NCBI GenBank assembly: GCA_963971405.1
Contig: OZ020485.1
Location: 2,728,001-2,792,000, forward strand
Source: Psococerastis gibbosa
Lineage: Eukaryota; Arthropoda; Insecta; Psocodea; Psocidae
Reading direction: 5' to 3'
Length of the DNA stretch: 64,000 nucleotides
A program made the translations under genes and the position numbers. Of the stretch, positions 2,270 to 54,726 are shown one piece after another; position 1 is the first letter of the stretch; each line of letters begins with the position of its first letter. The notes beneath the pieces are model-generated. The model was not told the origin of the DNA. It ran no database searches and saw nothing but the letters and a program-made list of their open reading frames with translations.

Positions 2270-2328
2270 GGGGATTTCTAAACTGCGGATGCGGACTGCG
2301 GACAAGGCCACTGCGGACGAAAGGGTTA
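2270..2328 (+). repeat. Left terminal inverted repeat of the 19.3 kb insertion
   Basis: Its core is gcggacaaggccactgcgg, with the heptamer tgcggac repeated, and it ends cgaaagggtta. About 50 of 59 positions pair with the right terminus; the outer 9 bp are poorly conserved. Confidence 0.9.
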
Positions 2329-2862
2329 TAAAAAGGGTTATCATTAAGTCACAGACAGAACAAAAAATAAATATATTTGTTTTGAGTTTAAAATGTGTTT
2401 TGTGATATTTCATCAATAAAATATTAAAAAATTATGGTTTAAAAACTTATTTTATTCATTGAGTACTGATTTTTTTGTTTATAGTTAGAATAAAATACTA
2501 ATAAAAAATGTGAATGCATGGCTGTCTGCTCAATGACGTCAAACAAAATAATGAATGACTGCTACGTCATTATTGTATCAGTAATTAAATAAAATTAAAA
2601 ATACCTTTTATTTTTATATTTTGAATTTGAAACTTTGAAAGGTTGAAAAACAACTCAATTTAAGCATGCTCTTCGAGCGCTTGCAACTAGCACTCCCCCA
2701 TGCCGTGTGAGCTGCTGCTCAAGGTTACATTTAGAAAACCTCTACGTAGAGTGTTACCAGCGTATTGACCCCATTATTTAATGAGTTGGAATGTGTCTCG
2801 TGATAACAACTAATCTATACGACTGCTGCAGCTGGAAACATCCTGTTCTCTTATCTTTTATT

Positions 2863-2869
2863 ATATATA
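2863..2869 (+). promoter_or_regulatory. Probable TATA box of the densovirus NS promoter
   Basis: An atatata box sits in ttattatatatacgggatca. A start site 25-30 bp downstream would fall at about 2890-2897. That makes the ATG at 2896 nearly cap-proximal and favours 2959 as the working NS1 start. The stretch from 2329 to 2862 is AT-rich, contains a small tgacgtca/acgtcatt palindrome (about 2534-2575) and has no gene I can see. Confidence 0.45.
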
Positions 2870-2895
2870 CGGGATCATAAATACCGACGTTGGTG

Positions 2896-4761
2896 ATGTT
2901 TCCAGTTAGTAGTTGGTCAAGTTCGGAATCGTTAGTTTGTGGTGAAACCGAAAAATTTATGTCAGAAAGTGAACAGTTTGAATTGATTTGTTTTGAGGAC
3001 TTATTGGAATTGTCTAGTGATGACAGATCAACCGCAAATTGGGACATTCTTCAAAAAGAGCAAGAAGAATGTCAAATTTCAGAAAGAGAAAGAAGTCCCA
3101 TTAGACGAAATGGAGATACTACCATCGACCCAGCAAATAGTAATGGAGTTGGAGGAAGAAACAAACTCGAACAGTCTGATGTTTTTCCTGGAGTTAATAT
3201 GGGAGAATATATTGACATTGACCATATTATTAAACAGTTTTTCGAAGATGATAAAACAAGCAGCAGTCGACAAGAGTTTACTAAACAAACGGAAGTGGGT
3301 AAAGATCAGGGATCTAACGGCGTCGGCATTGAAGAAGGAATTGCAGGAGCCCTCGCAGACTATATCATTCGAACATTTCAAACGCGCCCTGCAAGAAGCA
3401 GACTCCTACATGACGTTATCGCAGCAGATGTTGTCAGAGAAGGAGCGTCAAGACTTGATAGAGCTCTTCGGACCAAATACAGCGGAGGCATCTTTATCGT
3501 CGCCACACATGGCGACCACTACCACCTTATCCACGATTGCGCCTATACTTCTTCCACCTGTAGGTGCAGACGCGTCGATGAATTTAGAGGCGATACCAGA
3601 TACACTAGAAGAGTTCTTCGTAGCCTCAACATCCAAAGAGGATACTGGCAGAATCTCCTCATCTATCTCAGCAACGGTGGGAGAGACATTACATACATGG
3701 AAGTCGGAGGACGTGCGCGGATCATCGGTGGTGAAATTAGAGGTATTCCCTTTCAAGAACGTAATCAACAAGGACAAGAAGGACTGGTGGAAAGCGGCGA
3801 CCTTTCGAGCTACGATTCCAGTGTCGCCTTTGAGCCAAGTGCAACTTTTAGTGAACCGAATGATACCAGCCATACTTCAGATAGCGAAACAAGAAGGTGG
3901 CAGATTCGAAAAAAAAGAACTGCACCGTGGCGCCTTTACATTTACGTCAAGAGACACCTAGCTTCACCACCTTCACATTTAGTTAACACGACAACCTTTA
4001 ATGACTCAGAATTCGCCTTATTAAGCCATAATGAAAAAATTATGGCACTTGACTTGTTTGGTAACGATATAGCTGAAAAATCTACCTTAGAAATAATGAA
4101 ATTAGTCGAATCTAGCGAGTTTTGTATTTATAATGCACCTTTTGGAAACGTTGAGGCTTATTACTATAATGTAGAAGAAAGTTTGTTATACATGCGAGAT
4201 TTATTGAAATATCAATTTGGTGAGGAAGAAGTTATTAAAAGTTTCGTTAAAAACTTATTTGCAGTATGCGAAAGGAGCTATCCTAAACGAAATTGTCTAA
4301 TGGTAGTGTCACCACCAAACGGTGGTAAAAACTTTTTTTTTGACGCTATAATACATGCCTTTTTAGTTTTTGGAATGATAGGAAATTTTGGAAAGCACAG
4401 TCAATTCCCTTTGCAGGAATGTTGCCATAAACGTATTTTGCTATGGAATGAACCAAATTGTGAGCCTTCTGCTTTCGATACTCTTAAAATGTTATTTGGA
4501 GGAGATACGATGAGCATTAAAGTCAAATATAAACATGACAGTGTAATTTCGCGTACTCCTATTATTATTCTTACAAATAAGGATATATTTCCTAAAGATT
4601 TAGCTTTTCGAACTCGCATGTTTGTATATTATTGGAAAACTTGTCCTCCTTTAAAAACTTTACGAAAAAAATTACATCCAATGGCTACTTATTATTTGTT
4701 CGAAAATTATCATTGTTTTACCGATAATGTAACTATTGACAGCGGTGAGGAATATGAATAA
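2896..4761 (+). CDS. NS1: Endogenous densovirus NS1 (rolling-circle nickase / SF3 helicase)
   Basis: This is a parvovirus-type replication initiator, which nicks viral telomeres and unwinds DNA in the nucleus. Numbered from the ATG at 2896 (621 residues), an HUH metal-binding motif HYH lies at 208-210 and a candidate catalytic Tyr at 257 (IYLSNGG). The SF3 helicase Walker A (PPNGGKN, Lys 478), Walker B (ILLWNE, Glu 519) and motif C (IILTN, Asn 561) are all present. The frame is open throughout, so it is either young or retained. A second ATG at 2959 (600 residues) is the likelier start given the TATA position. NS2 overlaps in the +1 frame, and the capsid remnant converges 33 bp beyond the stop. 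It resembles NS1 of ambisense insect densoviruses. Being embedded in a TIR-bounded insertion in repeat DNA indicates an endogenous copy, not free virus. Confidence 0.9.
   Translation: MFPVSSWSSSESLVCGETEKFMSESEQFELICFEDLLELSSDDRSTANWDILQKEQEECQISERERSPIRRNGDTTIDPANSNGVGGRNKLEQSDVFPGVNMGEYIDIDHIIKQFFEDDKTSSSRQEFTKQTEVGKDQGSNGVGIEEGIAGALADYIIRTFQTRPARSRLLHDVIAADVVREGASRLDRALRTKYSGGIFIVATHGDHYHLIHDCAYTSSTCRCRRVDEFRGDTRYTRRVLRSLNIQRGYWQNLLIYLSNGGRDITYMEVGGRARIIGGEIRGIPFQERNQQGQEGLVESGDLSSYDSSVAFEPSATFSEPNDTSHTSDSETRRWQIRKKRTAPWRLYIYVKRHLASPPSHLVNTTTFNDSEFALLSHNEKIMALDLFGNDIAEKSTLEIMKLVESSEFCIYNAPFGNVEAYYYNVEESLLYMRDLLKYQFGEEEVIKSFVKNLFAVCERSYPKRNCLMVVSPPNGGKNFFFDAIIHAFLVFGMIGNFGKHSQFPLQECCHKRILLWNEPNCEPSAFDTLKMLFGGDTMSIKVKYKHDSVISRTPIIILTNKDIFPKDLAFRTRMFVYYWKTCPPLKTLRKKLHPMATYYLFENYHCFTDNVTIDSGEEYE
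3020..3961 (+). CDS. NS2: Endogenous densovirus NS2 (overlapping frame)
   Basis: A 313-residue frame lies entirely inside the N-terminal half of NS1, in another frame. Densoviruses encode NS2 in exactly this arrangement; its role is accessory to replication. The ATG at 3020 is the first one after the NS1 ATG at 2959, and none lies between. The NS1 ATG has a poor context (T at -3), so leaky scanning from one mRNA is a natural expression route. The product is charged (Lys/Glu-rich from about residue 13 to 50), with no recognisable catalytic motif. That two overlapping frames stay open over 942 nt argues against long neutral decay. Confidence 0.75.
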   Translation: MTDQPQIGTFFKKSKKNVKFQKEKEVPLDEMEILPSTQQIVMELEEETNSNSLMFFLELIWENILTLTILLNSFSKMIKQAAVDKSLLNKRKWVKIRDLTASALKKELQEPSQTISFEHFKRALQEADSYMTLSQQMLSEKERQDLIELFGPNTAEASLSSPHMATTTTLSTIAPILLPPVGADASMNLEAIPDTLEEFFVASTSKEDTGRISSSISATVGETLHTWKSEDVRGSSVVKLEVFPFKNVINKDKKDWWKAATFRATIPVSPLSQVQLLVNRMIPAILQIAKQEGGRFEKKELHRGAFTFTSRDT

Positions 4762-4794
4762 CAATATGTAATCAATATATATATATTTCATAAA

Positions 4795-5325
4795 TTACAG
4801 TTTTAAATTATTTAACCTTTTGGCGGTGCTTGGGTGGACGTTATAGGCATCTGCGTTGTTCTCGCTTTGTTTATGAACAAAGAGTTGTGCGTTACTGCAT
4901 AATCCTGATCGTCTAATGTTACTACTTGCAGTAGCTGCCTTGGTATTTGTAGAGGAATGCGCACTGGTGCTTCTTCTGCGTTTCTCCACACGTTCTCCCA
5001 ATTCTTGGGTTGCCATGTCATCGTCGGATTCGAAGTCGTTGTCCTCCGTGGTTTTGAAACCGCCATTTGGATACAAAGGCAAACCAAGACAAGTTTCACC
5101 GACAGCGTAGTGCTCATTACCATTATAGAAGTAGGTGTTAGTACGTGGCGCGTAGAAGTCAGTTTCACTACTGGCATTAACAAAGATAGAGCCAGGGTTA
5201 GCTTTAATGACAGCACTAGTTTCAACGGCAATGTATAATGCACTATTCTGGAACTTAGATGCTTCAGTTGCAGGATTTAACTGTGGTATAGCCAACATGC
5301 CGATGTGCAGCTGCGGTTGCGCAGT
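4795..5325 (-). pseudogene. VP: Endogenous densovirus capsid (VP), C-terminal remnant
   Basis: A minus-strand frame ending at 4795 carries densovirus structural-protein landmarks: QLHIGMLAIPQLNP near its start and the GETCLGLPLYPNGG stretch. Similarity extends a few codons upstream of the internal ATG (5296-5298) to about 5325, where it stops abruptly against unrelated LINE-like sequence. Only about 175 codons of a gene usually several times longer remain, so the N-terminal unique region and most of the jelly-roll are missing. It converges on NS1 with a 33 bp gap, the ambisense layout of these viruses. It cannot make a capsid. Confidence 0.8.
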
Positions 5326-5353
5326 AACTCAATCAGATTGAAGAAGGAAAAAT

Positions 5354-5805
5354 GTGTCCCGTTTGACCGCTGTGAATTTCGAAAGCAAAGCTGAGATACA
5401 GAATTCAGAAAGGCTCAAGTTTCAGGATTGTGTGTACTTAGACACGATGTCTTTTGTATATAAACTTGAGAAAGGAAACCTCCCGGAGTACATGACTACG
5501 GAAATGGAGAAAAATAGTGACATACATAAGTATGGAACAAGAAGTATGAACAACCTGCACAGAAATTACAGAAGAACGAACTTAGGAATAAATTCAGTGT
5601 ATCATAAAGGCATGGCAGAGTATTATAAAATAGAACCGTCAATAAGAACATCGCAAAATATTTCTATATTTCGAGCTAAATTAAAAACTAAATTGATGGA
5701 AAACATGTGACATAGTGATATAGTAAAAGTGTGTACAATAGTTATTCACAGAAGAACTGAACATTAGCGCAAGCGCTACTTGGGAATACAACAACAACAA
5801 CAACA
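5354..5805 (+). pseudogene. 3' end of a non-LTR retrotransposon with (AAC)n tail
   Basis: The frame to 5710 resembles the extreme C-terminus of LINE reverse transcriptase proteins (motif YLDTMSFVYKLEKGNLPEY, then an HKYGTRS element). A short 3' UTR and a five-unit aac microsatellite tail (about 5790-5805) follow, as expected for a 5'-truncated LINE. It abuts the truncated densovirus capsid gene, so its arrival or a later deletion may have removed the rest of VP. Confidence 0.6.
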
Positions 5806-6241
5806 TTAGGCATTGGAGTTGTAGATGAAATGATGATTGTACAAGAAAAAATATTTGGCAAATGTTCCGGGTTACAAATCTACCAACTAAGCTATTTGTA
5901 TATGTATCTATCTGTGCATGTGAATAATATTGGATAACCTATTTTCCTGTAAGTAATGAAGGCTGCGTTGTTTCCCTACCATATTAGTTATATTAGTCAT
6001 ATTAGTTATTTGTCTATGAGCGGGGGCTATATGCCTATACCCTGTACCCAAATAAAATTAAAAGAAATACAACTGTTACTAATATGTGTAGACTAAAATA
6101 ATTACATTTGTTTCGCTCCATTTGAGTATCTGTAATAGACATTTGGAGCAGAAATAATAAATTATTCTGCTTTAAATACACCGACTACATGAGAAACCCC
6201 ATGAATGAATGCCATCTTCCATTTCAGTATTTCCACCAGTC
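5806..6241. other. Intergenic, no gene seen
   Basis: AT-rich sequence with short iterations of attagttat (about 5985-6010) and an aataaa run near 6050. I see no coding or RNA feature. Confidence 0.4.
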
Positions 6242-6560
6242 TTAACTAAGCCAGCCGCCTAGGCATGTCGTCTTAGTTGTAGGCATCGTCAAGCGCTTAA
6301 TATTTAGCCCTCTTGAGTCGCAATCTACGGATTGGTTTGCAGCGAATGTTGTATTTTTCTCCTGCACTCTTGTCTGTTTAGTGCGGTCCTTTTCGCACCC
6401 CAGGTCCCTCATGACATCCTGTAGGTACTCCTTCCTCTGTCGTCCTCTTGAGTTGGTGCCTTCAACCATACCCTCAATTATGTTCTTGAGGAGCCTTTCG
6501 TGTCTCAGAATATGTCCCATCCATTTGCCTCTTCTTGTCGAAATCGTGGCCATAATAGCT
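6242..6560 (-). pseudogene. RTE-type LINE, C-terminal fragment
   Basis: The minus-strand translation has RRGKWMGHILRHERLLKNII, then a basic GRQRKEYLQD stretch and a final NQSVDCDSRG. This is the signature order at the C-terminus of RTE-clade ORF2. Reverse transcriptase and endonuclease domains are missing. It is a dead-on-arrival copy inside the 19.3 kb insertion. Confidence 0.65.
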
Positions 6561-8739
6561 CTTTTTTCATATATGTAATGCTGTAATTTGGATTTTATAG
6601 GTCTTCTTCATAGTGACTCTCTATGTGTCCAGCAGTCCTGCCAAATTAGCTAGGATATGAGTCATTTGGTAGGAGTAATGGATCATTCCAACGGAAGAGC
6701 CCAAATGGTCGAAAACCACCAGATTTCATGCACATAATCATCGACGAAAAGGGAGACATGAAGGTCCCAAAGTTGTGCCTGTTATCAAGCCAAACCAAGC
6801 TCATGTGAGTAGCCTAAATTAGTGTAGAATAATAAAAACATCGTGAAATATTACAAGTTGTACCTATATTTTTTAAAGACTGTACAGCATGTAAACTTTC
6901 TACTGCATACTATTTCTCCGTTAGGTACCGTTACAGTATAATATACCGTAACCGTTACAGTATAATGTAGTTGTCTATGTTTCTACAGTGTATTATTACC
7001 ATGCCGTTTACTGTACGTGAAATCATGAAGGTGTTGAGTTTGCATAAGGTTTACCTTATTTCAATCCCTAATGGCTTCAGAGAGCTTGTTAAATATTGGT
7101 AATAAGTAGATTTTTATTTATTCTGTAAATCGAGATGATCTGTGAGCCTGGCCTTATGTGTAACGATTGTCACTGGCACGTGCAGGTGCCATGTTGGGTA
7201 TCTCAGAGACTCGGACCTTGTCTCGGTAAACGCAAATACGCCTTTTATAATTCAATAAAGGGCAATGCCTATTGCGGAGTGAGGGACCAAATGGTCTCGT
7301 TTACGCCATTGTTTCGTAGCATGGAATTCATGTATGCATTACAAGTCACAAAATTTGTGAGGTTAAGTCCAGCCAACTTCAGTTAGAGTCTTCCCACGAG
7401 GAACACTTAGGCGAATGTCCCAGCAAAATAATTAAATATTGTGCCAGGTATGATGCTTGCCTCAGGGCATGAATGAATTCTAGAATGCGGCATGAGACAC
7501 TTTGGATACTCTTTGACTTGGTAGTTTTCTTTGCATTGGCTGCGTTTTTAAACAGCGTACTGAATTTATTTATTTACAAAAAAATAGATAAAAAAAGCGC
7601 TGCAAAACAAAGGGCAGACCACCAAATATTAGTTTAATTGAAGTGATATGCATTATAAAACTATAAATTGTAACATTTTTGACCGCGTTCTTATTAATTT
7701 TGCCATAACTGTATCCTTCAGATCCTTCCCCCGAATTACACAAAAAAAAAATTATATTTACTAATACAATATTAAATTTAAATTTTATTTTCTGAGTTGT
7801 AAGATACCTATGCTATGAATGCTAAATGACCAATTACTTGTCACTTATTGTGTAGGCAACTTCAATTTTTTTAGTGGCTCTTATAAACTCGAAAGTTTGT
7901 AAGTAGTTACTACTTCTTGACCCCTGGTCACCAATGTGATTCTCAGGCGCTACCGCGACATTCACCAGATTCTCGGCACTCACAAGCCACAGCTAAATAC
8001 TGCTTCATTGAATGCCCCTGACACTCCACAAGATCGTCTTCGCCGAGGTGCAGATTATCTTTTAATGATATGAATAATAATTTTAGAATGGGCCTGACTA
8101 CGACCAGGGGACCTACTTTTGATTGAATTGGGCTTAGATGTTATGTTGGGTCATTATTATTTCGCCAATGATTGGTTAGAGTGGAATTTGACCTTTCACA
8201 CCCAATACCAAAGGGTGCGTGTGATGTTCATTCCTCAATTTTTATTTATGTTTATTGTTTTCAGGCTATGTCAATGCTGGTGATACTCAGGAGTGATCTG
8301 TTGAAGCAATCTACAATATTATGCCCTCAGTATTTATCATCGTTAATAGACTTAATTAGCCTTCAAAAGTCAAAACAATAGAAGGCGTCAACCAACCTGG
8401 GCGCCCGAGAAAAGAATATCTGCAGCAAGTTGTGAATATACATATACAATACATACTGTATACATACGCGGACCTGAATTGAAGAAGAAGCCTTCAAATT
8501 GCACAGAAGTCGGGGAAGCATACAGTATTACTCTTTGTACTATTAAGATAATATAATAATACCATTTACTAGACTAATAAATGTATGCAAATGCAATCTA
8601 TAATTTATTATTCATATACCTACTTTATCTTAATTTAAGAGCATCAAGTGCATCATGGTGTAAGCGCCATTTTTTATTTGCTGTAGAAAGTCCTAGTCAT
8701 TCATCATATTAGAGTCTTGAATGTAAACTCCTATGGTTA
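6561..8739. other. Low-complexity intergenic; weakly duplicated at 40.9 and 43.7 kb
   Basis: No convincing gene. Two short stretches recur in the same order further right: gcctaaatta near 6810 (again about 40903) and the tttcagg...ggtgata stretch near 8263-8290 (again about 43660). They suggest that the 6.8-15.4 kb and 40.9-47.2 kb regions are ancient paralogues. A splice-donor-like gtgagt follows a codon-like stretch at about 6803, but coding is not demonstrable. Confidence 0.35.
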
Positions 8740-9209
8740 TATATATATAGTTTAAATGTTTTTAGCCCCTAGCCTAAACCACCTTAGCTCAAGGTTGCGC
8801 TGCCTGATTGATGTCCTTGATAGTTCTTAGCGCTGCAGCATAATTTCCATGCCAGAAAAGATAGCATGAACCTGTATGTTATTAGTGAGATGTTTCTCCC
8901 AGCTAGGCAATCCCAGGACTAAAATAATATAATATACCTAAGCTTAGTTCGTGGTTGATCTAAAAGAAAGTATTAAAGTTAAAGAACAATATAAAATAAT
9001 GTAATGATGTGGCCTACACAGGCCTATAGTTGGCTAAAATTTAGTTATGCAACCTATGCTATTAATGCTCTCGTGTCTTAGGCTATTAAGCTACCTTACT
9101 GCACTTCACAATTAAATTGGTTATGCATAGTCTAATAATGTTATTATTCGTGTCATAAGGCTGATCAAAAAATTTCAAATGTACAAAATATTGAAATAGT
9201 GTGGGTATA
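8740..9209 (+). repeat. Duplicated block D, copy 1 left part
   Basis: Aligns colinearly, with much divergence, to 45775-46160 (shared aattcagttatgcaacct-type and attcgtg stretches). It is interrupted by the Gypsy element after gtata at 9205-9209 and resumes at 13986. Confidence 0.65.
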
Positions 9210-9402
9210 TGTGGTGTCTGTGGTTTTCTAGAACCACGTATTCCGGAAAACCATTAACCATTAGTTGGAGTTGTATGGTCGTAAACAAAAAATAAAGATG
9301 GATGAACGATTTACCGAATTATTAATTTATTACTATATTATTTAATCCTGTACAATAATTAATGGATATAACAGAATAATATAATGGGTAAACTACAGAA
9401 CA
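9210..9402 (+). repeat. Gypsy 5' LTR
   Basis: 193 bp, TG...CA ends, same as the 3' LTR apart from a tandem aaccatt duplication near 9250. Confidence 0.95.
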
Positions 9403-9403
9403 G

Positions 9404-9415
9404 TGGCGCAGTCGG
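9404..9415 (+). promoter_or_regulatory. Gypsy primer binding site, tRNA-Ser type
   Basis: tggcgcagtcgg starts one base after the 5' LTR. It is complementary to a 3' CCA end preceded by an acceptor strand like that of insect serine tRNAs (5' gcagtcg). Confidence 0.7.
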
Positions 9416-9501
9416 TAATTAGCCTACTATATTTACTATTTTGCGATTGTTTTTGCTTATTGCTTACTTACTAGTGCACGTGGTACTTTTACTTTGCCAC
9501 A

Positions 9502-12500
9502 ATGACAGATCTAAAAGACGTTTTGCAAGCCAATTTGAATATGCAGAAGACAATGTCGGATATTTTGAAGGCTTTAACTAGACCCCAAGGGCAAGGTTCA
9601 CCTGCTCAACCTGCTACAGGTGGGGGAAAGAGTTTTCCAAAACTTGATAAATTTATTGCAAGTGACGACATTGCGTTACACATTGAAAAATGTAGTGCAG
9701 CTTTTAAACTTTACAGCATTACTGATGATAGCACGATGCTGCAATTGTTTATGCATAGTTTGCCTACTGATTTATATGGACTTACTAAGGATTTGCTACA
9801 TCCGAAAACGCTTGCAAACTCACAGTATGATGATGTGACTAAACTTTTGCAAGGTCATTTGCGACCAACACCTTTAGTCATACCTTCTCGGCATACACTA
9901 TATAAACGCCGACAGCAAGAGGGAGAATCATTGGCAGCTTATTCGGCATCTTTACGCCACTTAGCTGTTCCTTGCAAGTATGCTTCCAGCGTGTTATCAG
10001 AGGTCCTCAGGGATGTTTTTGTGGCAGGTTTACGAGATCGTCACATTTTAGATCGTGTTCTTGAGGAAGATAACGCTGATTTCGATAAGATTTATGCTCT
10101 GGCGGTGTCTCTTGAATCTGCGTCGTCAGGGACACGGGAATTGCTAGTGCAACCTTCTAGTTCCGTTAATAAAATAAAAAACAAGTCTTTTCAGAAGAAT
10201 AAAGTTACTCAGGGCAAGAAGGAATCTACTTCAAAGCAGTCTACCTCTACTACGAAGGGGAAACAGATTGTGTGCTACAGGTGCGGTATGGTTGACTCGC
10301 ACAAGGCTCCTGATTGCAAGAAAAAGAACTTAAAATGTACAAATTGCGGACGCGGCTCTCATGTGGCAGCCGTCTGCCTTTCAAAGAAAACGGTTCACGC
10401 GGTGGAAGATTCATTACCCATTTATACATTGTATTCCGTGACATCCGTGAGTAATGACTTTTATAAACCTTACATGGTTCCACTGCAAGTAGGGAATAAA
10501 ACAGTATCGTTAGAATTGGATACTGGAAGTGCTCATACTATTTTAAATGAACATTTATACAAAGACTTACAGTTGAATGCTCCGTTGCAACCTACAAAGA
10601 CTCAGTTCCGGGGTTATGGTGGTACGATAATCACACCTAAAGGAGTTGTTACAGTGCCTGTGACTTATAAAGCCTCGACGGCTAACTTGCGACTTTTTGT
10701 AGTGCCAGGTAACCTGCCTCCACTCATGGGACGTGAGTGGTGTCAAAGTCTGCAAATTTCACCTGTTTTTCATGCAACCGCTACAATTACGCCGTCTGCC
10801 GAAGCGAAGCTACAGAAATTGTTAGCGGAGAACAAGGAAATTTTTAGCAGTGGCACAGGTATCGCAAAGAATTTTTGTGCTGAATTACAGTTAAAAACTG
10901 GCGCTAGTCCTAAGTACTTAAAGGCGCGACCAGTACCATTTGCTTTGAAGCCAAAAATTTCGGCCGAGATTGACCGTTTAGTTGCAGAAGGAATTTTACG
11001 CCCTGTCGAAAGGTCGGACTTTGCGACTCCAGTGGTTCCTGTACTTAAGGGAGACGGGTCCATACGTCTTTGTGCTGACTACAGCGTTACATGCAATCAG
11101 CTCATTGAGGTTCCTCAACATCCAATGCCAGATATTGAAGATTTGATGTCTACTTTGGGGCATGGTAAATATTTTGCCAAACTGGACTGTCGTACTGCTT
11201 ACTTGTCGCTACCTGTTACACCAGACACCGGTAAGATTCTAACCTTAAATACACACAAGGGACTTTATCAACCGACACGTCTGATGTTTGGGGTCAATGC
11301 GGCGCCAGCCATTTGGCAACGTTATATTGAAGGTGTTCTACGAGACATCGAAGGAATTTACGTATTTTATGACGATATGTTGGTTCAAGGAGATACAGCT
11401 GAACAGCTACTTAGTCGCCTTGCATTAGTGTTTTCTAGATTGAAAGAAAATGGACAGCGACTAAATTACAGTAAATGTGAATTCCTGAAATCTTCCGTCC
11501 AATACCTGGGTTACAAAATGTCAAAGGACGGCCTGCATAAGACTGATGAAAAAATACAGGCTATACTTAATGCTCCAAAACCTCAAAATGCCAAAGAGGT
11601 AAAATCATTCATGGGAATGGTAACTTTTTATGCACGTTTTATACCAAATTTAGCTACGATAGCCAAGCCTTTATACGAGTTAACAAAGCACGATACAAAA
11701 TTCACATGGACTAAACAGTGCGACCAAAGCTTGAAAGCTTTACAAAAGGAGATAGTTTCAGAGAAGGTTCTTGTGCACTACAGGCCGGACCTTCCAGTAA
11801 TTTTGTCTGTGGATGCTAGCCCGGTCGGAATTGGGGCGGTGATCGCTCATCGTTTCAGTGATGGCTCAGAGAGGCCTATAGCGTTTGCTTCTCGCATACT
11901 TTCACCCAGCGAACGCAACTACGCCCAACTCTGTAAGGAAGCACTGGCGATTAAATGGGGCGTTTCCAAGTTTTACCGTTACCTGTTGGGACGTCGATTC
12001 TGTCTAGTTTCAGATCACAAGCCTTTGTGTCATATTTTTGGGCCTAAGGCGAAGTTACCAGTTATTACTGCTACACGACTTCTACACTACGCGCTGTACT
12101 TGCAACAATTTCAGTTCGACGTGAAATACAGAAAGAGTGATGATAACGGCAATGCAGATATGCTTTCACGCCTACCTGTTACATCGGAGACCTTGTTTGA
12201 CCTGGATGATGTTGAAGAATTCCAAACCCATCATTTACAGGTTGTGCCAATCAAGCCTGTGGATCTGGCGAAGGCCACCAGAGAAGATCCAGACTTGATG
12301 CCTATTCTTGAAAAACTACGTGCTGGTGAGTCATTTCACGATGGCAAATATTCATTGCATGCAGGATGCATATTGCTAGGCATTCGTGCGGTTATACCAG
12401 CAAAATTACAACGCACAATACTCCATGAACTGCATTTGGGTCATATGGGAGTAGTTAAAATGAAAGCGTTAGCACGTTCATACGTGTATTGGAAAAATAT

Positions 12501-13635: not shown

Positions 13636-13787
13636 AAGTGCGCGTTACGAGTGCATGGCCTGTCGAGTGCAGTGATTTTTTTTTCTTCTCTTATGGTATG
13701 TTGCTAGTGTACTGTGGCACCCGCAGAGCTCCCCTGTCCTTTGTCTATTACTATGCCTAGGAGGTTTGCAATTATTTTTTTTTCTAC

Positions 13788-13799
13788 AAGGGGGAGGAC
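13788..13799 (+). promoter_or_regulatory. Gypsy polypurine tract
   Basis: aagggggaggac directly abuts the 3' LTR and would prime plus-strand synthesis. Confidence 0.85.
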
Positions 13800-13985
13800 T
13801 GTGGTGTCTGTGGTTTTCTAGAACCACGTATTCCGGAAAACCATTAGTTGGAGTTGTATGGTCGTAAACAAAAAATAAAGATGGATGAACGATTTACCGA
13901 ATTATTAATTTATTACTATATTATTTAATCCTGTACAATAATTAATGGATATAACAGAATAATATAATGGGTAAACTACAGAACA
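13800..13985 (+). repeat. Gypsy 3' LTR
   Basis: 186 bp, followed by the gtata target duplication. Confidence 0.95.
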
Positions 13986-15400
13986 GTATAGTCTCTTCGG
14001 GATTAGTAAGACTAGTTGAGTCTACCAAATATTGAAAAGGAAAACCTTCTAATATCTGAAATATACAAATTCACCACCAAATAAATATATGACTAAGTCT
14101 TCTGTATTACTTCCGGCTACGCTTCTACAAGATAAAATTGTGACTTTCTGCGCTGTATAAGGATATTTAGGGATTTACTAAATTTCACATTTTTAAAATC
14201 AGCCGCCTCCAGCGGTCTATTGACACGAAAAATCACAAAATGGTGGTTCATGACGCGGCGCGCTTCACGACCGAAAAAATCAAGAAAGGTAAGTTCTCAT
14301 ATAGTTTTTTCATCTGTATCTTACTTTAATGTATTGTTTTTGTTGCTAGAGCTTATGTTAAGAGGTGTTTGCAGGTAAATTGGACTGGATTTTTTTGGAA
14401 TTTATTCGTAACTGGGTGATTTGCATTTCGTTGTATTAAAAATTGCTGCTGCCACGTCATTTTTTAAATTATAGCGGGAAAATGTAAACATTGTAAATTT
14501 AAATTGAAAACTAAAAATCCCACAAATCAATCTATGCATATGGAAAGCGGGTATTCCACTATATCATGTTTTTATAATTTGATCAATTTTCTTATAATAT
14601 ATTTTATTTTAATGACGATTGAAATTTTCGACCATTCCATTATCATCATTTTTTAATGCCAATTTCTTTCGCGCCAAAATTCAAAATTATTTGATGTTTG
14701 TGCAGAATAAAATTTTAATTGTATACGGTATTGTATATGTTATTTATGGAAATAATTAATAATAATTTAATGCGATTATTCTAACACACTAAAGAACGAA
14801 TGTTGCAAAACACCCCTAATAAGAGACAGTTTAGCCTTTCTCCAAGATTACTTACTCTATTTTATTTTCATCGCTACCACGTGAAAAATAGATTATGTCA
14901 ACTCTTTGATATGCGGTCATTTTTAATAGACACCGCTTAATAATGAAAACGTCATAGAGTACAACGCAAAAACATTTGAGGTTAAGCAAAAATAATAGTG
15001 GGAAATGGCAAACACTGATCTATTCTGATAGGCCTATCATCCCAGATTCTACTGATTCATCATGTCACTCCGGCCGTGAAAGCTTTTGTAATTATATTAT
15101 CTGAGCATATTTTTATACAACTATTGGTAAAATAATATTATCACCCTGTATTTAAACTAAAGGTTAGTTTACTTGTTTCAAATATTCTAATACCTTCATT
15201 TTCTTTCTGTTTAAGGAAAGAACAGAGCGACTGAGCAGGAGACGTCACGTTAACTCACAATACGTAAAAAAATGGACCTCTTCATAATATAGTAATAATG
15301 CACATCGTATAATCTATAAGCTACTGAGACACAATTTTCGAAATCGGCATAGTGCCACAAAAGATATCAACTGCAGCCATTGAGTAATTATTTAGAAATC
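13986..15400 (+). repeat. Duplicated block D, copy 1 right part
   Basis: Aligns colinearly with about 46156-47240. The best-conserved patches are a splice-donor-like stretch (atcaagaaaggtaagttct, GT at 14289; counterpart 46505) and a pyrimidine-tract acceptor followed by gaaagaa (15216; counterpart 47056). A transcribed ancestor is possible, but no stable reading frame is shared between the copies. Confidence 0.6.
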
Positions 15401-15464
15401 ACAGTCCACTATTCTGGTTTTTTTAGATTCTTCTGTTATTAAATCTTGGTCTATAGTTTCGATG

Positions 15465-15491
<27 letters not shown>
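15465..15491 (+). repeat. Poly-T tract (27)
   Basis: A 27-T run, in effect a minus-strand poly-A tail-like tract. The 340 bp after it hold no feature I recognise. Confidence 0.8.
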
Positions 15492-15495
<4 letters not shown>

Positions 15496-15829
15496 GTGAG
15501 GTCCAGTTTGGGTGGATATGGGACTCTTTTCGAACCTGGAAAATAAAAAAAATTAAATTATAGGCCGGGAACAATATTTTATTTCAGAATTAAGAAACAT
15601 TGCACCTTTGAATATGTAAGACAACTCCAGAACGCAATTAAAAAGTTCAGTTATTTACAGGAGAATTCATTTGAGATTCAGGAAAATTTGGCTTTAAAAA
15701 TTATTTTTTGACTTAAATATCTCCAACACGGTTTACCCTTAAATGCGATTTAAAACGACAAAGAAAATCAGTTGCAGTACGAATTTCCTTTTCCTGAACT
15801 CACATTACTATATGCGCATATCTTTTATG

Positions 15830-16360
15830 CATGTTAATATCTCATCAAACCGTTTCAGTGATAAATGCCATATCCACCGAATATGGGCCGCCTTGCATGA
15901 TATTTTTTTTAGTTTTTAAGAAGCTAAGCAAGTTAGAAGAATGATAAGGAAGTGTTCAAACGTACAAAAGTTCTTGTGGCTTATTCATCCAATGCTAAAA
16001 GAAGTAACTGCAGTCTGCAAGTCAAGATTGTGTTAAATCGTTTGTGGTTTACATTTGGACATCTGACAACTTCATTAGTGGTTATCCCTCAGCGTATATT
16101 CCTGAAACATTCAGAATTGAAATTAACATGTACATAGTCTCCTTATTAACTATGTTAAAGGTACTCAGCCAAAACCGGTCGTGAATTTTATGATAATAAC
16201 CTAAAACTGACATTGAAATTAAATCTGGGCTCAGATAATTGGACCAACGGGTTGTAAGCTTTGCCCCGCCAAAAAGGTTACACTCTGATTGGCTTGCATT
16301 CCAGCTCTTCTATTATTCGTGACCACGGTGTTAAGGTGTAAAGGGAGTAGTTAAACAAAA
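15830..16360 (+). repeat. Dispersed repeat R, copy a
   Basis: Shares caaaccgtttcagtgata, gccatatccaccgaatat, and further on cctgaaaca with 18480-18838. It shares the ccaaaaaggtta and tctagctctt-like end with 17284-17600. Unclassified and non-coding. Confidence 0.65.
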
Positions 16361-16489
16361 CGCGTATTTGAAAGAAGGAAAGAAAAAAAAATTGTCTTTA
16401 TTTTCCATATGAGCGAATTTCGGGCCTTTCGGCCCACTCTTACAATTAACCCATAATGTTAACTTAACTAAACTAAAAGCGACCATTTC

Positions 16490-16745
16490 CACACCATTTA
16501 TACAACATACATACTCATAAAATAATTGTGACACGCCCTCTTAAACTTATTTAAACATTTTTCATTTCTGATTGGATCCGGTAGGGAGTTTCAAAGCCTC
16601 ACCACCTGCACCGAAAAGGAAGAAGGCCTAGGATGTATGGATTGGAAATGGTAACTTATTTTTTTCTCTTGTATTCCGTGCATGGAAAGAGGATAATGGA
16701 CGGAAAAGGGGTGTAAGGTAGGGAGGTGTAAGCGTCTCAAGCACG
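16490..16745 (-). pseudogene. LINE reverse transcriptase C-terminus, stop-interrupted
   Basis: The minus-strand frame contains SVQVVRL-stop-NSLPDPIRN, then LNKFKRACHNYF. This is the common closing motif of insect LINE polymerases, with the expected Trp codon changed to a stop. Degenerate fragment. Confidence 0.6.
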
Positions 16746-16749
16746 GCAC

Positions 16750-17258
16750 ATAATGCAAACTTGCTTACTTAGTTTGGCGCGTCCAGCCCGGGGAACTTTT
16801 GGCCTCTGCCACTGCACCACGCCACCTCGGACGATCATCCGCTGCTAGCAGTTTTGGGTGCCGGTGGCGTGCACATCTACGAGCACTTGGGCCCTTCATC
16901 TTAGTCTTGGCCTACCGGGACGCCTAGGGTGGTTGAAGGTGTCCTCGAAAACCAGCTTCGGCGTCCTCACCGCGTGCATACGGTGTACATGACCCAGCCA
17001 TTGGATTCGACGCCCTTTTAGTTCTAAAATTATATTCGGGTTTATAGTCGAATAGGGCATGTATTTCGGCATTGTGTTTAATCCTCCAGACGCCGTTCTC
17101 CCATCTACCACCGAAGATAATATGAAGCATTTTATTCTCGAAGACTCTTAATCTTTGGGCGTCCCATATGGATAGTGTCCAGGCCTCACATCCGTACATT
17201 AGAACAGGCCGAATTAGGATCTTGTACACGCGAACCTTTGTCGTTCTAGACAGGAGTC
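16750..17258 (-). pseudogene. RTE-type LINE, RT C-terminal fragment
   Basis: Minus-strand translation: LLSRTTKVRVYKILIRPVLM, YGCEAWTL, RLRVFENKMLHIIFGG, then in a shifted frame KGRRIQWLGHVHRM and PRRPGRPRLRW. This is the canonical order of the RTE-clade C-terminus, broken by at least one frameshift (near 17040). It separates two parts of the repeat R area. Confidence 0.8.
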
Positions 17259-17740
17259 GAGATATTTGGACATCCCCGGGCAATTCATTGGTGGTTACCT
17301 CTCAGTGCATATTCCTGAAACAATTGAGAAGTTAAATTAATATTCATAATACTCTCCTTACTAACTTTGTAAAATGTACTGTCAATTATGGTACAAATTA
17401 TGAAATGAAATGCGATGGCGTGAGCCGAAACCTGTCGTGTATTTTATGATTATAACGTAAAACTACCATTGAAATTTAATCTGGTCCCAAATTGGAGCGA
17501 ACAGAATCCATGTGGACGAGATGATTGCCCGACCAAAAAGGTTACGTTCTGACCTGCTCATATTCTAGCTCTTATTTGTCGTGACGAAGGTTCTCACTTT
17601 TCAGCAAGAGTAGGTAATGTGAACACCATATTGACATGGCAGAGTATTGAGCTTGAGTGCTGGAAGTGTTTGGATCGAATCCTTGATCTCCTGCACTTTT
17701 CCTTCCAGTGTGACACCTCGTCATATATTTTAATTAAAAA
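17259..17740 (+). repeat. Dispersed repeat R, copy b
   Basis: Matches 16060-16330 (tcctgaaaca, tcgtg-attttatgat, ccaaaaaggttac) at moderate identity. No coding potential seen. Confidence 0.6.
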
Positions 17741-17767
17741 TGCTACACTAAATGAATAAAATATATT

Positions 17768-17912
17768 GACTTTTTTTCGTTCTATTACTAAGTCAAGATA
17801 GCTGAGTTGGGGCTACAAAGCCCTCACTTACAATAAAAAAGGAACACTCGGGACCGCCTGCTTTACATGCCCTCCGAAGCATGGCCAGAAAATGTAGCAA
17901 GTGTTGAACAGC
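17768..17912 (-). repeat. SINE S1, head-less copy
   Basis: Reverse-strand body of the S1 family (cctccgaagcatggccag, gggaccgcctgctttacatg). The tRNA-like head is not recognisable. Confidence 0.7.
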
Positions 17913-18152
17913 GCAATTACTACCATCCGGTCCTCGTTGCTCCCTCCTAAGTCAGCCAATTAAAGTTGTATTTTGGTGAAATTTTAATATTTTGTGCATA
18001 AAATGTTAAACTTTGTGAATCATTCATTTATTTACAACAAGTGTCTACCTGATAAATTTATTAATATTACAAACATTGAAACAGAACATATGGCGAGACT
18101 ATGTATAAGAGAATTGACATTCAAAACAATTAGAACGAATCCATAAAGTTAA

Positions 18153-18409
18153 ACCTAGCCATTGACTAGGGCTCCAATCGGGCTCGCGCCAAGCCAAATG
18201 GCGCGTCTTGTTCCGTTTGGCGTTAGCGCCATTTAGAGGGGTCATTCACGACTACGCTGAACCAGTCGCTCTAAATCTTTCACATTGTACAGTGTGACGA
18301 TATGGAAGAAGTCGTGAATGACCCCTCTAAATGGCGCTAACGCCAAATGGAAGAGGACGCGCCATTTGGCTTGGCGCGAGTCCGTTTGGAGCCCTCGTGA
18401 ATGGCCAGC
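18153..18409. mobile_element. Foldback MITE with TTAA flanks (family F), copy 1
   Basis: A 257 bp palindrome. Its arms share gccaagccaaatggcgcg, ggcgttagcgccatttagag and gtcattcacgac. TTAA flanks both ends. A second copy is at 62688-62993. TTAA duplication would fit piggyBac- or Kolobok-type mobilisation, but no transposase is present. Confidence 0.7.
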
Positions 18410-18479
18410 TTAACGCTGAGCCACTGCACAGTTAAGTACATACAGTAGTTAATAATAATAATTCATACATTATGCGTAT

Positions 18480-19230
18480 ATCTTTGATTTTTGTTAATAT
18501 ATTATCAAACCGTTTCAGTGATAATTGCCATATCCACCGAATATTTCATGAATTATAGTTTTTTTTTCGTAGTTTTTAAGAAAGTAAGCATGTCAAAAGA
18601 TACGATTGAAAAGGAAGCGTCCAAACGTACAAAAAGTTCTTAGTGTCTTACCCGTCCATTGCTAAAACTGCTAAAAGAAATAGGCTAACTTACTGCAGTC
18701 TGCATGTGTAGTATTAAATCTTATGAAGTTTCTATTTCGACATCTCTGGACAATTGGCTATCCCTCAGTGCATATTCCTGAAACAATTGAAAAGTTAAAT
18801 TAATATACATAATAGTCTCCTTATGTGTAACTGCAAACGAAGAACCAGTAGAATCCGGGCTGATGGGCCGTGGTCGAAATGAAAGTGAACTTCCAAACGT
18901 TTCGAATGAATCTTGCTACGGAGCCACCGAGGTACAACATTCGAAGTCTACGCAGCGCCACTGAAGATGCACCGCAGATGTTGACGAAACGTTTGGAAGT
19001 TCACTTTCATTTCGACCAAGGCCCATCAGTCCGTATTCTACTGGTTCTTCGGTCTCATTATTAACTTTGTAAAATTTACTGCCAATCATGAACGCCATAT
19101 TAACATGGCAGAGGATTGAGTGCTGGAAGGTTTGGATCGAATCCTTGATCTGCACTTTTTCTTCGACTGGGACAGCTCGCAATTGATTTTAATTAAAAAT
19201 GCTGTACTATATACTGTAAAATAAAGTATG
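18480..19230 (+). repeat. Dispersed repeat R, copy c, split by a PLE hairpin
   Basis: Matches copy a up to gtctccttat. It is broken at about 18838 by a Penelope-type hairpin and resumes at 19053 with ttaactttgtaaaat, as seen uninterrupted at 17340-17385 and 47675-47700. Confidence 0.65.
18839..19052. mobile_element. Penelope-like hairpin remnant
   Basis: Two inverted arms of about 65 bp (gaaccagtagaatccgggct...; aacgtttggaagttcacttt) surround a short centre. The arms match the termini of the PLE pairs at 25.0, 25.7, 28.9 and 62.1 kb. No coding part remains. Confidence 0.65.
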
Positions 19231-19384
19231 GGCATGTAGCAGCCGTAAGGTAAAGCATAAAATACCGATTGTCTAAATTCCAGGTCGCCAAAAACAAGTA
19301 ATTCTTAATAGTTTTAGGAAGTGGAAATTCCTAAAAGAAACTCTAAACTGTAAGAATGTATCACTTCACCGACATATTTGTTCA

Positions 19385-19878
19385 TGACATCAACAACACA
19401 TCACACATGGCTCTTCAACGCCTTACTATTATAGAAATATGCAGTGAGAAGAGTATTAACAGCATTTTTACGTGTCAATAAAATTAATGTATTAAACAAA
19501 AGTTCGACTCCTGGTTCAAGGACTTACACAAGATTGTTCAATGTCGCCATATCTACAAAAATCATCCCTTCGAAGAGAATTATATTTGGATGGACCGTCT
19601 TGGAATACGCTCTTCCTTAAAAATTCCGACGTCTGCATCACCAACACACCGTCGCCAACATTTCTAGTAGAATAAGTGTGAATTTCACCAAATGTAGTTA
19701 TTCTTGAGCGTAGGTACTCGGGTAATAACTGGTTCATAATTTTAAAAATGAAAACCATCGTATCAATAAAAACTTGTTCACGTACGGTAAACATTGCAAG
19801 TTCTCGAAGCATCCAATCAACAGACGTCCGATACAATGGAACATTTAATATATTTCTAAGCCCCACATTAATTGCCAC
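19385..19878 (-). pseudogene. LINE RT C-terminal fragment
   Basis: The minus-strand frame includes LRNILNVPLYRTSVDWMLRE, FIDTMVFIFKIMNQLLPEYL and EIHTYSTRN. This is the end region of a non-LTR polymerase, related to but distinct from the one at 5354. The 3' flank (19385-19550) recurs diverged at 20225-20400. Start and upstream domains are missing. Confidence 0.6.
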
Positions 19879-20800
19879 TTACCCGTAAGGAAAAGCATAG
19901 GATGCCATAAAAATTGTCTACACTCGAGGCCGACAAAAACAAGCGATTCTAAATAGTTTCAAGGCGAAGAAATTTCTAAACCCAATCAAAATGTCCTATT
20001 TTGTAAAAATTTAAATAAATCTTGCTTCCTGTCAAAGACCAATGTTTTACAACTGTCTAATTAAGCATCCAACTCACGTTTAAATAAGATACCAATTAAT
20101 GACTGTTTTATCTTAACACATGAACATTCGTCTTCCTCGAGCAGCAGAGTTGTAGAAACTCCTTTCATCTAATTATTTAAATTCTCAAATAACAAAACGT
20201 CCTCGGATTTAATCGCTTCATCGACATTTTACATCATAAAATCAACAACACATGGCTCTTCAACGCCTTACTATCGTAGAGATCTGCAATAAGGAGTATT
20301 TACAGCGTTTTTACCCATCAGTAAGTTTATTCCATGGATGAAGGAACAGCTCGACTCCTGGATCAAGGACTTATACAAGCTGATTAAATGTCACCATATC
20401 TAAAAAAAAACATGACAATTAATAGGAGTCACAAGTAAAGAAAGAAATAAGTGTAAACCAATGTTTTAAAATGCATTCAGTACATCATAAAGCTTCATAA
20501 GCTAAACTATTACCTCCAGTAATAATAGCCAGTCAGGCTGGACAAGGGTAGCATAGAAAGTCAACAATAATACCCAAATATTATATTGAGAGCCTTACAA
20601 CTGAAAAGTTGCAATGAAGTACAGTAGTTTAACATGTAAGCTATTCAAATAGCACGTAATTGAATCATTTCTAGAAAACAACTAGCTGTACGCTACACAC
20701 GTGAGCAAAGATGATGCCGAAAAAAATTTCCCAATCTGTACGTGTGCGTGTGTTGTAGAAAATTAGTAATGCAATGCACTAATAAGTTTTTCAGATTTTC
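19879..20800. other. Repeat-derived, non-coding
   Basis: Contains the second, diverged copy (20225-20400) of the LINE 3' flank at 19385-19550. Otherwise AT-rich with nothing recognisable. Confidence 0.4.
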
Positions 20801-20815
20801 ACTGCTCATTCCATT

Positions 20816-21046
20816 TCACAATCGTTCACTCTTTAGTTCATCTTGAAGCCGTTTCCTGAATGTAGTCACTGATGGTGCTTGTTTAAATACCACCTTCTTG
20901 TGAAGATGGAAGGGCGAAGTGGCGCCAGAACAGATAGGGGACCTACTTTGAGCCGAGATAAGGAAAAAAAACCGTCTTTTCTTGCAGGGCACCCTTTTAT
21001 CTGGGGGTGGGAAACTGGTCCCGAAGGTGGAGGAACTCAATCTCAA
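20816..21046 (-). pseudogene. Possible LINE C-terminal scrap
   Basis: The minus-strand frame ends APSVTTFRKRLQDELKSERL, resembling the closing helix of many LINE polymerases. The rest is unrecognised. Weak call. The following 490 bp up to the right TIR hold no visible gene. Confidence 0.25.
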
Positions 21047-21536
21047 TGAAGAGTGAACGACATAATTTCATAGTTATCATGGCATGTAATGGTACAATCT
21101 TGACTACGATTGCCATGATCATTACCCATTATTAGTTATTTGTCTATGATCATTACCCATCTTCGATAAAAGATGCATTCGAAGAAGGGCTTCCGGCTCA
21201 TGAGCAAAACTATTTTCTTGCTAATATATAAGGGGATTAACAACCAAAAATAATTAGACTAAAACCGATAAATTAGGGCCGAGCCATGCCCCATTACACT
21301 GTTAAGTAGAACCTATCTAATAATAGTGTTAGTCTGCTAATTCAATAATAAGGGAATAAAATATAGAATTGGCTCGGAAATTGTATAAAAAACTACATAC
21401 TTACCAATTTAGTTTATTCATTAATAGAAAATAAAAGCTGAAAAAATATCACACCTGATATTTCAACAAACAAAACACGCCATCTTACTTCCTTCCATCG
21501 ATGACGTAACATAATGTGATGACGTCGACCATAATG

Positions 21537-21597
21537 TAACCCTTTCGTCCGCAGTGGCCTTGTCCGCAGTCCGCAAATCCGCAGTTTAGTGTCGCTC
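21537..21597 (-). repeat. Right terminal inverted repeat of the 19.3 kb insertion
   Basis: Inverted match to 2270-2328 (ccgcagtggccttgtccgc core). It is followed by the 9 bp duplication aaccaacac at 21598-21606. Confidence 0.9.
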
Positions 21598-21606
21598 AAC
21601 CAACAC

Positions 21607-22205
21607 TCATTCAAAATGAAAGGTTTGTTTATGTTTTAGTTGCGGAATTCTAGTGCCATAGACAAAAAACTAATTAGTTAGGCTAGTGCGCTACAACAAT
21701 TAAAATTTACTTAAAATTCATTTTTTCTGTTAGAAATATTAAATCCTTTTAGGAAATTATTGAATTTTCAAATGCAATTTATGTTTTATAGTGAGAATAA
21801 TAATAAAAGTAATAAGATAATTAGGTTTAAATTATCTAATTTAGTTTCTTTTGCCACGAAAATGCCCCCCTGAAGACAGGTGCCTCTTCCAAAACAGGCA
21901 TAAATGAAGTAAAAAATGTGTATTATTTTATACGTAAAAATATACGTTAATAATTCATTAGACAATAGATAATTAATAAATGTCTAGTTTGTATTTCAGA
22001 AATTGTTTTAAACTAATTTTCTAGGGAGAAAATAATGTTTTTATCAAACGATAGTCGAATGGGTCTATTGTAATGCGAACATAACAGGCTTTAAACACAT
22101 TGAACGACCATACTTGATAGCTCCTTTATGCACATACTATATTTTTGCAGATAGAACCTTTTTGCACGTACTTAATGTTTTCAAACTTTTCAAATTGTTA
22201 TTATA
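21607..22205 (+). repeat. Repeat X, copy A, right part
   Basis: Matches 51539-52147 with about five substitutions. It ends in tatagctc after a short iterated tttcaaa tract; both copies diverge immediately after it, marking the 3' boundary of X. Confidence 0.9.
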
Positions 22206-34848: not shown

Positions 34849-35104
34849 TGTTGGGTTATGCCTTGGATCGGTTTTAAATTTATAGATAAAAAAATATCAC
34901 ACTTTGAATTAATATTGTGTATTCGCCATCTTTGTAGCAAGGAAGTAAAAAACATTGTAAACTCTAAACAGTGTCACAGACAATGTCATAGACAAACAAA
35001 AATATTATTAAATTAATATTTATTTTCATTATTATTATTTTTAATTTTATTATTATTTTATTATGAAATAGCAAAAAATTATAATTTAAAAAATTATTTC
35101 AACA
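34849..35104 (-). repeat. Copia 3' LTR
   Basis: Identical to 39225-39480. The polypurine tract (aaggggagga on the minus strand, 35105-35114) abuts it. Confidence 0.95.
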
Positions 35105-35197
35105 TCCTCCCCTTAATTTTTGCATGAATAATTAAATTCCAAACTTTTAGTAAAATAAAATAAAATTCCTTCATTATATAGAAATACAATAAAAAGT

Positions 35198-39095: not shown

Positions 39096-39210
39096 GGTGT
39101 ACTGGTAAGATTAGGTTACACAAGCACTTTGCACACGCGACAATTTTAATTATTATTTTTAATTTTTCTTTTTAATTGATTTTACGGAACATCTTGGTTT
39201 CCCGATTTAT

Positions 39211-54698: not shown

Positions 54699-54726
54699 GA
54701 TTTGACTAGTTGTAGTAGCACAACTA

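Follow-up and report, generated by a model that had tools for sequence, protein, structure and literature searches.

A 19.3-kb insertion in Psococerastis gibbosa as a probable copy of a young, giant MULE-like transposon family with a nested densovirus fragment

The window analysed here, 64,000 nucleotides of Psococerastis gibbosa contig OZ020485.1, contains an inserted element of 19,328 bp at positions 2270-21597. We conclude that this insertion very probably belongs to a young family of giant, non-autonomous, MULE-like elements with terminal inverted repeats (TIRs) and a constant cargo of repeat debris; a densovirus fragment and an LTR retrotransposon are private nestings of this copy. A transposase supplied in trans would recognise the TIRs and move the block by cut-and-paste, while the densovirus may have been acquired by end-joining of a linear viral genome in the course of a recent infection.

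Boundaries of the insertion and its target site

Based on sequence matches, the element is flanked by a 9-bp target site duplication (TSD), AACCAACAC, at 2261-2269 and 21598-21606. TIR comparison and genome searches place the left TIR at 2270-2328 (plus strand, starting GGGGATTTCTAAACTGCGG) and the right TIR at 21537-21597 (minus strand, starting GAGCGACACTAAACTGCGG). The inverted ends are identical at 50 of 50 paired bases with a 2-base gap (2279-2328 vs 21537-21588), and the outermost 8-9 bp are unequal between the two ends (GGGGATTTC vs GAGCGACAC). Because each of these forms is seen again in other copies of the family, we take both to be true ends of the element. A 21-base TIR core gave one match in the window versus 0.00 expected from shuffles, the left TIR, with its 2-base gap, being uncounted in that search.

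The same target, AACCAACAC, lies uninterrupted at 51527-51535 within a paralogous copy of the flanks (49270-52147, plus strand), which aligns with 1-2269 and 21598-22209 and is one of three segmental-duplication copies. Over its 2,269 bases, the left flank has 7 mismatches to this empty copy plus 3 gap bases, and the right flank has 5 mismatches in 597, a divergence of about 0.42% when only mismatches are counted; beyond the 597-base stretch there is a 9-bp indel, after which the match stops at 22209/52147. The third flank copy is inverted, lies ~20 kb upstream in blocks that are mostly 98-99% identical, and is without the 19.3-kb element, with a different 2.3-kb TIR element ~10 bp from the site. 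Both TSDs, the fully paired TIR bases and the empty site confirm the insertion with ~60-bp inverted termini and a 9-bp duplication that the initial annotation had described; the empty target that it had reported is present and uninterrupted, at a position 3 bases away from the one given (51530-51538).

TIR family and its constant cargo

Genome-wide searches with the TIR and the element ends covered 409 Mb. A 38-base TIR core occurs at 36 sites (35 exact, 1 with one mismatch) and a reversed control pattern at none. Thirty of these sites make 15 pairs spaced 8.7-32.9 kb apart, with at most 3 mismatches in both TIRs of the 15 copies, and six are single; no TIR pair shorter than 8.7 kb was found in the 409-Mb search. 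Together, the TIR and end searches count 21 copies. An exact 9-bp TSD stands beside conserved ends in 10 of the 13 copies examined; one of the other three has a TSD displaced by 8 bp, one has none and one is untestable. The elements fall into subfamilies of about 8.7 kb and about 11.9 kb, and copy sizes differ because of private insertions in individual copies. Other copies with the same cargo and their own 9-bp duplications, which the initial annotation had proposed to look for across the assembly, therefore exist, and its contrary scenario, in which all other TIR copies are short and without cargo, is contradicted by the spacing of at least 8.7 kb in every pair.

Copy alignment resolves the backbone of the window element into three parts on the plus strand: 2270-2657, which is identical at 388 of 388 positions in each of two sister copies, 5332-9209 and 13986-21597. 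The second part contains debris that looks LINE-like by eye; the LINE-like fragments in the window gave no Pfam match, and the label "decayed LINEs" reflects the look of short frames. Within the backbone, both sisters share the segment 5415-5803, which has an (AAC)n end; its frame indicates that the C19:14.04 Mb copy has it too, and the 10 remaining fetched copies lack it. The segment 16513-20349 is restricted to the long subfamily. Over 11,890 aligned bases, the nearest sister, on the same chromosome, shows 9 mismatches and 4 gaps to the window backbone, and the sister on C14 shows 12 mismatches over 11,896. Both have their own 9-bp duplications, and also private insertions of their own, and the 11.9-kb interior that they share with the window includes diverged internal repeats as well as LINE-like debris. 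Across the family, ~7.5 kb (with small gaps) is alignable in 13 of 13 copies, with 0.02-3.40% substitution divergence over the compared segments. Because the sisters carry the backbone together with its debris at so few mismatches, a large pre-assembled block moved as a unit, and recently. We conclude that the interior of diverged repeats and LINE-like debris is the constant cargo of the family and travels as one unit. The earlier suggestion that an old, pre-assembled block had moved in this way holds for the 11.9-kb backbone but is not supported for the densovirus segment as a part of the shared block.

The target duplication of MULEs is 8-11 bp long, typically 9 bp. Here, the exact 9-bp duplications and long TIRs of about 50-60 bp agree with this class; because no transposase partner was found, the MULE label is drawn from TSD length and TIR form only. 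Pfam was searched with 18 of 36 listed long frames from family copies (14 from a set of 24 with a 130-aa minimum and 4 from a set of 12 with a 110-aa minimum): none matches a transposase, seven have retrotransposon domains (one below cut-off) and 11 have no match. Of the four copies longer than 20 kb, the interior was read in two, in one of them (C2:19.92 Mb) in part. With its several copies, conserved ends and own TSDs, and no transposase among these 18 frames, the family has the features of a non-autonomous one. Elsewhere in the genome, there are 15 MULE and 3 IS1595/Merlin-type transposase domain matches, all outside the elements, and the four TIR strings tested are absent from two of the 15 MULE loci (C12 and C13; 4.5 kb each). 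We note that the C12 and C13 loci share long sequence beyond the domain.

The family resembles Pack-MULEs and other non-autonomous Mutator-like elements in its 9-bp TSD, long TIRs, foreign DNA between them and the lack of a detected internal transposase, but its cargo is repeat debris whereas theirs consists of gene fragments. A review puts all the Pack-MULEs of the first report, from 2004, at no more than 7 kb (PMC6431247); the elements described here, at 8.7-11.9 kb, are larger than those.

Nested densovirus and Ty3-like insertions

Copy alignment, target duplication and terminal sequence identify 2659-5325 (plus strand) as a truncated, nested densovirus provirus, flanked by AACTCA at 2652-2657 and 5326-5331. 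Its left end lies within viral terminal hairpin sequence and its right end within the capsid frame. It contains an open NS1-like frame of 626 aa from stop to stop (2881-4761, plus strand), in which the match to Parvo_NS1 (E 9e-17) points to the NS1 with SF3 helicase of densoviruses; a second, overlapping frame of 324 aa in the position of densovirus NS2 (2987-3961, plus strand; no Pfam match); and the C-terminal part of a capsid (VP) frame (4795-5328) on the minus strand, opposite to NS1 in an ambisense arrangement. The capsid assignment has a Denso_VP4 match of E 0.001 and 18.9 bits, below the Pfam cut-off of 27; there was no capsid among 15 PDB matches of the VP piece up to E 1, and a PHROGs search gave no match. 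Three scans of viral_contigs for relatives of NS1 yielded none confirmed, zero and one stretch (L001), respectively.

Parvo_NS1 is found at five places in the genome, and the window place alone is inside a TIR element. Other densovirus copies carry, at each of their two ends, a terminal sequence that belongs to the virus itself; it folds into a hairpin (z -3.35, equalled by 0 of 200 shuffles) and is unrelated to the element TIR; the window copy retains part of the left terminal hairpin only. We also considered the densovirus piece as a mobile unit of its own with a shared right boundary at 5326. This was rejected because, in the VP-frame region, two other copies continue past the window breakpoint to the opposite terminal hairpin, and the window piece is thus simply cut at 5326. 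The piece is absent at its site from 12 of 12 other copies fetched, including both sisters. On the best reading, the densovirus is the accident of one copy and not a trait of the family.

A Ty3-like LTR retrotransposon occupies 9210-13985 (plus strand), as identified by its LTRs, Pfam domains and TSD. It has a 1386-aa gag-pol frame (9475-13635) with RT-RNaseH ahead of integrase, LTRs at 9210-9402 and 13800-13985 that are identical except for one 7-bp indel, and a flanking 5-bp duplication, GTATA, within the 4-6 bp expected of such elements; both sisters and 10 other copies fetched lack it at its site. Because both sites are empty in other copies and each piece is flanked by a small target duplication of its own, the densovirus fragment and the retrotransposon, together 7.45 of the 19.3 kb, are private insertions nested inside the TIR element. 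Nesting, which the initial annotation had set aside, is therefore right for these two pieces, though not for the 11.9-kb backbone.

Viral sequence within a mobile TIR element recalls Teratorn (PMC5601938), in which a piggyBac transposon and a herpesvirus are fused. There, the fusion characterises the whole family, whereas here a truncated virus piece is present in 1 of 21 copies of a transposon that looks non-autonomous; one of the five NS1 places is in a TIR element and the other 12 copies fetched are without it at this site, unlike a virus that is part of a transposing unit in several copies. As reported for endogenous densoviruses of tapeworms (PMC6880638), there are several copies, some of them retaining full-length frames as well as viral ITR remnants, but one copy here lies inside a young giant transposon at a site that is empty in the sisters. 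Densovirus vectors in insect cells are likewise reported to integrate at random without recovery of full constructs (PMC5978394), but those integrations were experimental and heavily rearranged whereas the fragment here is natural and collinear.

Alternative readings and meaning

Were the TIRs the densovirus's own terminal repeats, the entire insertion would be a provirus, or else a mobile element driven by NS1, that nesting filled afterwards, as might be suggested by the GCGGAC repeats in the TIR and by the open NS1 frame, which begins ~600 bp inside the left end. However, the other 12 fetched copies have no densovirus at the site and yet have TIR ends in place (both in 11 of 12, the left one displaced in the remaining copy), and the densovirus copies elsewhere lie outside TIR elements with a different hairpin sequence at their ends. 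Identity of the TIR with the viral ITR is thereby refuted, and we consider this reading as good as impossible. That a small TIR element landed and its whole interior was nested in place afterwards is very improbable: such nesting is true for the two private pieces and fits the size differences caused by private insertions, but the other 11.9 kb, with its debris, is common to sisters at other sites (~99.9%) with their own TSDs, and the family-wide alignable sequence and the lack of short TIR pairs also stand against it.

A course that we think unlikely, though with a real chance of being correct, is that the donor copy already contained both the densovirus piece and the LTR piece and all 19.3 kb jumped here as a composite. 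The few mismatches to the nearest sister imply that all events took place within a short time, as this would have it, but genome searches found this densovirus piece nested in no other copy, and the donor would have to have since departed or been lost. We hold it somewhat less probable that the assembly set two alleles, one filled and one empty, in tandem, which would make the insertion a heterozygous polymorphism. The flank divergence falls inside the range of ordinary heterozygosity, which includes ~0.42%, but the third, inverted flank copy fits a real cluster of segmental duplications and there is no N in the window or the adjoining 50 kb fetched; this alternative would change how the empty site is understood but leave the insertion as it is.

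Under the preferred reading of a young non-autonomous family with private nestings, old-looking cargo within a fresh boundary is explained directly, the debris being the constant load of the transposon, and the sister copies give the order of each nested insertion. The family provides an animal example of a non-autonomous TIR element of ~12 kb with recent movement, above the sizes given for the first Pack-MULEs (PMC6431247). With similarly low probability to the tandem alleles, we entertain a bolder formulation: a gene-less giant transposon that is mobile with ~12 kb of dead repeats, one copy of which, having acquired an open replication gene of a densovirus, is a nascent transposon-virus composite at its first step that may already have jumped once as a 19.3-kb whole. 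There are several very recent densovirus integrations in this one genome, and one of them is in an active-looking transposon that could carry the virus further.

Boundaries and target site of the element

The TIR-bounded element spans window positions 2270-21597 and is flanked by a duplication of its target, AACCAACAC, at 2261-2269 and 21598-21606; the uninterrupted target, AACCAACAC, occurs once, at 51527-51535. The inner TIR bases pair identically (50 of 50) with one 2-base gap, and the outermost 8-9 bases are unlike at the two ends, both forms, GGGGATTTC on the left and GAGCGACAC on the right, being seen again in other copies. The flanks are part of a segmental duplication with three copies, of which the one in direct orientation has the empty site (12 mismatches over ~2,860 bases of both flanks), while an inverted copy further upstream, in blocks mostly 98-99% identical, is also without the element. 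In this inverted copy, which lies ~20-23 kb upstream of the window's first base, a different TIR element of 2.3 kb with the ends CAGGGATCTAGAGCT is inserted at a distance of ~10 bp from the element's target site; thus, two unrelated elements struck a near-identical spot in paralogous copies.

Elsewhere in the window, a tRNA match (RF00005, 38.2 bits) lies on the minus strand at 42855-42927, and GC-rich tandem units with CCGGGG-type palindromes and periods of 79-89, possibly satellite-like, occupy 52192-55972. Frames at 58518-60117 have a YqaJ-like match (PF09588, 6.9e-14) and a weak one to Viral_alk_exo (2.5e-4), and may together represent a single nuclease gene carried by a mobile element.

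The interior of the element moved as a unit

Using the element's left end, right end and 38-base TIR core as queries against the 409-Mb assembly (68 contigs, window included), we counted at least 21 family copies, leaving out a 33-base match at 20.74 Mb of contig C20. Twenty of the 21 have both ends in consistent orientation, and the copy at C12:28.23 Mb has the right end only. The TIR core was found at 36 or more sites (35 exact, one with a single mismatch); because the searches score best candidates only, both counts are lower bounds. Of these 36 sites, six stand alone and the other 30 make up 15 pairs with spacings of 8.7 to 32.9 kb. At the stringency of the 38-base core search, the assembly contains no short TIR pair, and the other TIR copies are not all short and cargo-free.

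Besides the window's copy, we retrieved 12 copies, 11 of them over their full length and one, C13:20.87 Mb, lacking the left tip, which is displaced. The initial annotation had asked whether other TIR copies have their own 9-bp duplications, and an exact duplication lies beside both ends in 10 of the 13 copies, the window's included. It is displaced by 8 bp at C3:25.92, lacking at C13:34.30, where the left end is altered, and not assessable at C13:20.87 because LTR sequence displaced the left end.

The copies fall into a short (~8.7 kb) and a long (~11.9 kb) subfamily, the extra sequence of the latter corresponding to window 16513-20349. Measured on eight segments, substitution divergence ranges from 0.03 to 1.67% among short copies, from 0.02 to 1.18% among long ones and from 2.65 to 3.40% between the two subfamilies; 6 of the 104 copy-by-segment cells, in which the alignment covered <80% of the segment, were omitted. 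In a FastTree phylogeny (5,844 columns), the window's copy groups with two sisters, C2:6.17 Mb and C14:45.07 Mb (support 0.999), and pairs with C2:6.17 alone at support 0.838.

Aligned over 11,890 bases, the window's copy and C2:6.17 differ by 9 mismatches and 4 gaps; for C14:45.07, the difference is 12 mismatches over 11,896 bases. The part common to all three includes internal repeats only ~66-83% alike and LINE-like debris that, judged by eye, consists of decayed LINEs; the LINE-like window fragments gave no Pfam match. Because this old debris and these diverged repeats are common to near-identical sisters, the debris is older than the jumps and was carried along with the element. We conclude that the interior moved as a unit. 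Counting mismatches alone (0.076% between window and sister, 0.42% between flank copies), the window/sister split would be about five times more recent than the flank-copy split in relative, uncalibrated terms.

Candidate source of mobility

The family copies contain long frames in two sets of 24 and 12, of which 14 and 4, respectively, were run against Pfam; seven of these 18 have retrotransposon domains (one below cut-off), 11 have no match and none matches a transposase. Many frames outside the Pfam set resemble the same frame of another copy. Genome-wide, there are 15 MULE and three IS1595-type domain matches, none of which falls within an element, and the family's TIR strings are absent at the two MULE loci read. 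We suggest that a MULE-type transposase acting in trans would move the element by cut-and-paste; because the transposase partner was not found, we refer to the family as MULE-like rather than MULE. A review states that none of the Pack-MULEs first reported in 2004 exceeded 7 kb (PMC6431247); other papers treat Pack-TYPE capture (PMC8616336), maize and rice MULEs with nested insertions (PMC3903597) and Teratorn, a piggyBac transposon-herpesvirus fusion (PMC5601938).

Private insertions and the densovirus segment

The initial annotation had proposed that old cargo moved as a pre-assembled block. This holds for the 11.9 kb that the sisters share but is not supported for the densovirus and LTR retrotransposon pieces, at whose sites both sisters are uninterrupted; these two may have entered either before or after the element's last jump. 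The nested retrotransposon is flanked by a 5-bp duplication, GTATA, and the sole difference between its LTRs is a 7-bp indel; on either side of the densovirus segment stands AACTCA, a duplicate of target sequence, and next to its right-hand occurrence there is a small change. Private insertions also occur in the sisters, of 1.3 kb (10 shared bases) and 2.2 kb (9). Reverse-transcriptase frames are present in other family copies, and a Ty3-like gag-pol in the 20-kb copy at C19:14.04. Separately, a Copia-type LTR retrotransposon at 34849-39480 has minus-strand frames of 766 aa (RVT_2 6.6e-64) and 546 aa (Retrotran_gag_2 1.2e-27) bounded by two identical 256-bp repeats and is, therefore, probably young.

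In the densovirus segment, an open NS1 frame of 626 aa (Parvo_NS1 9e-17) overlaps a second frame of 324 aa, and the opposite strand carries the last part of a capsid frame (Denso_VP4, E 0.001, under the curated cut-off). Parvo_NS1 was found at five places in the genome: the window, a relic at ~75% identity and three close copies, whose DNA identity is 98.6-99.4% in the main alignment and, where tested, 98.1-98.5% in the initial 199-257 bases. The relic, which is older, has three stops and lies on contig C19, as does one of the viral copies closely related to that in the window. Two other copies have a common viral terminal sequence at their left end, and two have it at their right end; it folds into a hairpin (DNA, -13.8 kcal/mol, z -3.35) and runs in one direction on one strand at both ends, and thus has opposite orientations with respect to the virus. 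Because the copy in the window begins within the left terminal sequence and ends inside the capsid frame, it is an ordinary truncated integration with no relation to the transposon TIRs. Densoviruses of tapeworms (PMC6880638) and integration of a densovirus in cells (PMC5978394) have been described; titles and abstract openings in the literature surveyed mention no giant TIR element with a densovirus inside it, which is not proof of absence.

Within the NS1 frame, the window differs from the C19 copy at 24 sites (codon positions 1/2/3: 8, 2, 14), from the C14 copy at 8 over the first 1,712 bases (4, 0, 4) and from the C15 copy at 12 over the last 978 bases (2, 0, 10); 3, 2 and 0 of these, respectively, fall where the second frame overlaps (975 bases, 178 of them covered by the C15 copy). 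This codon-position pattern looks like selection in replicating virus, which would point to several separate recent integrations rather than to decay in the genome.
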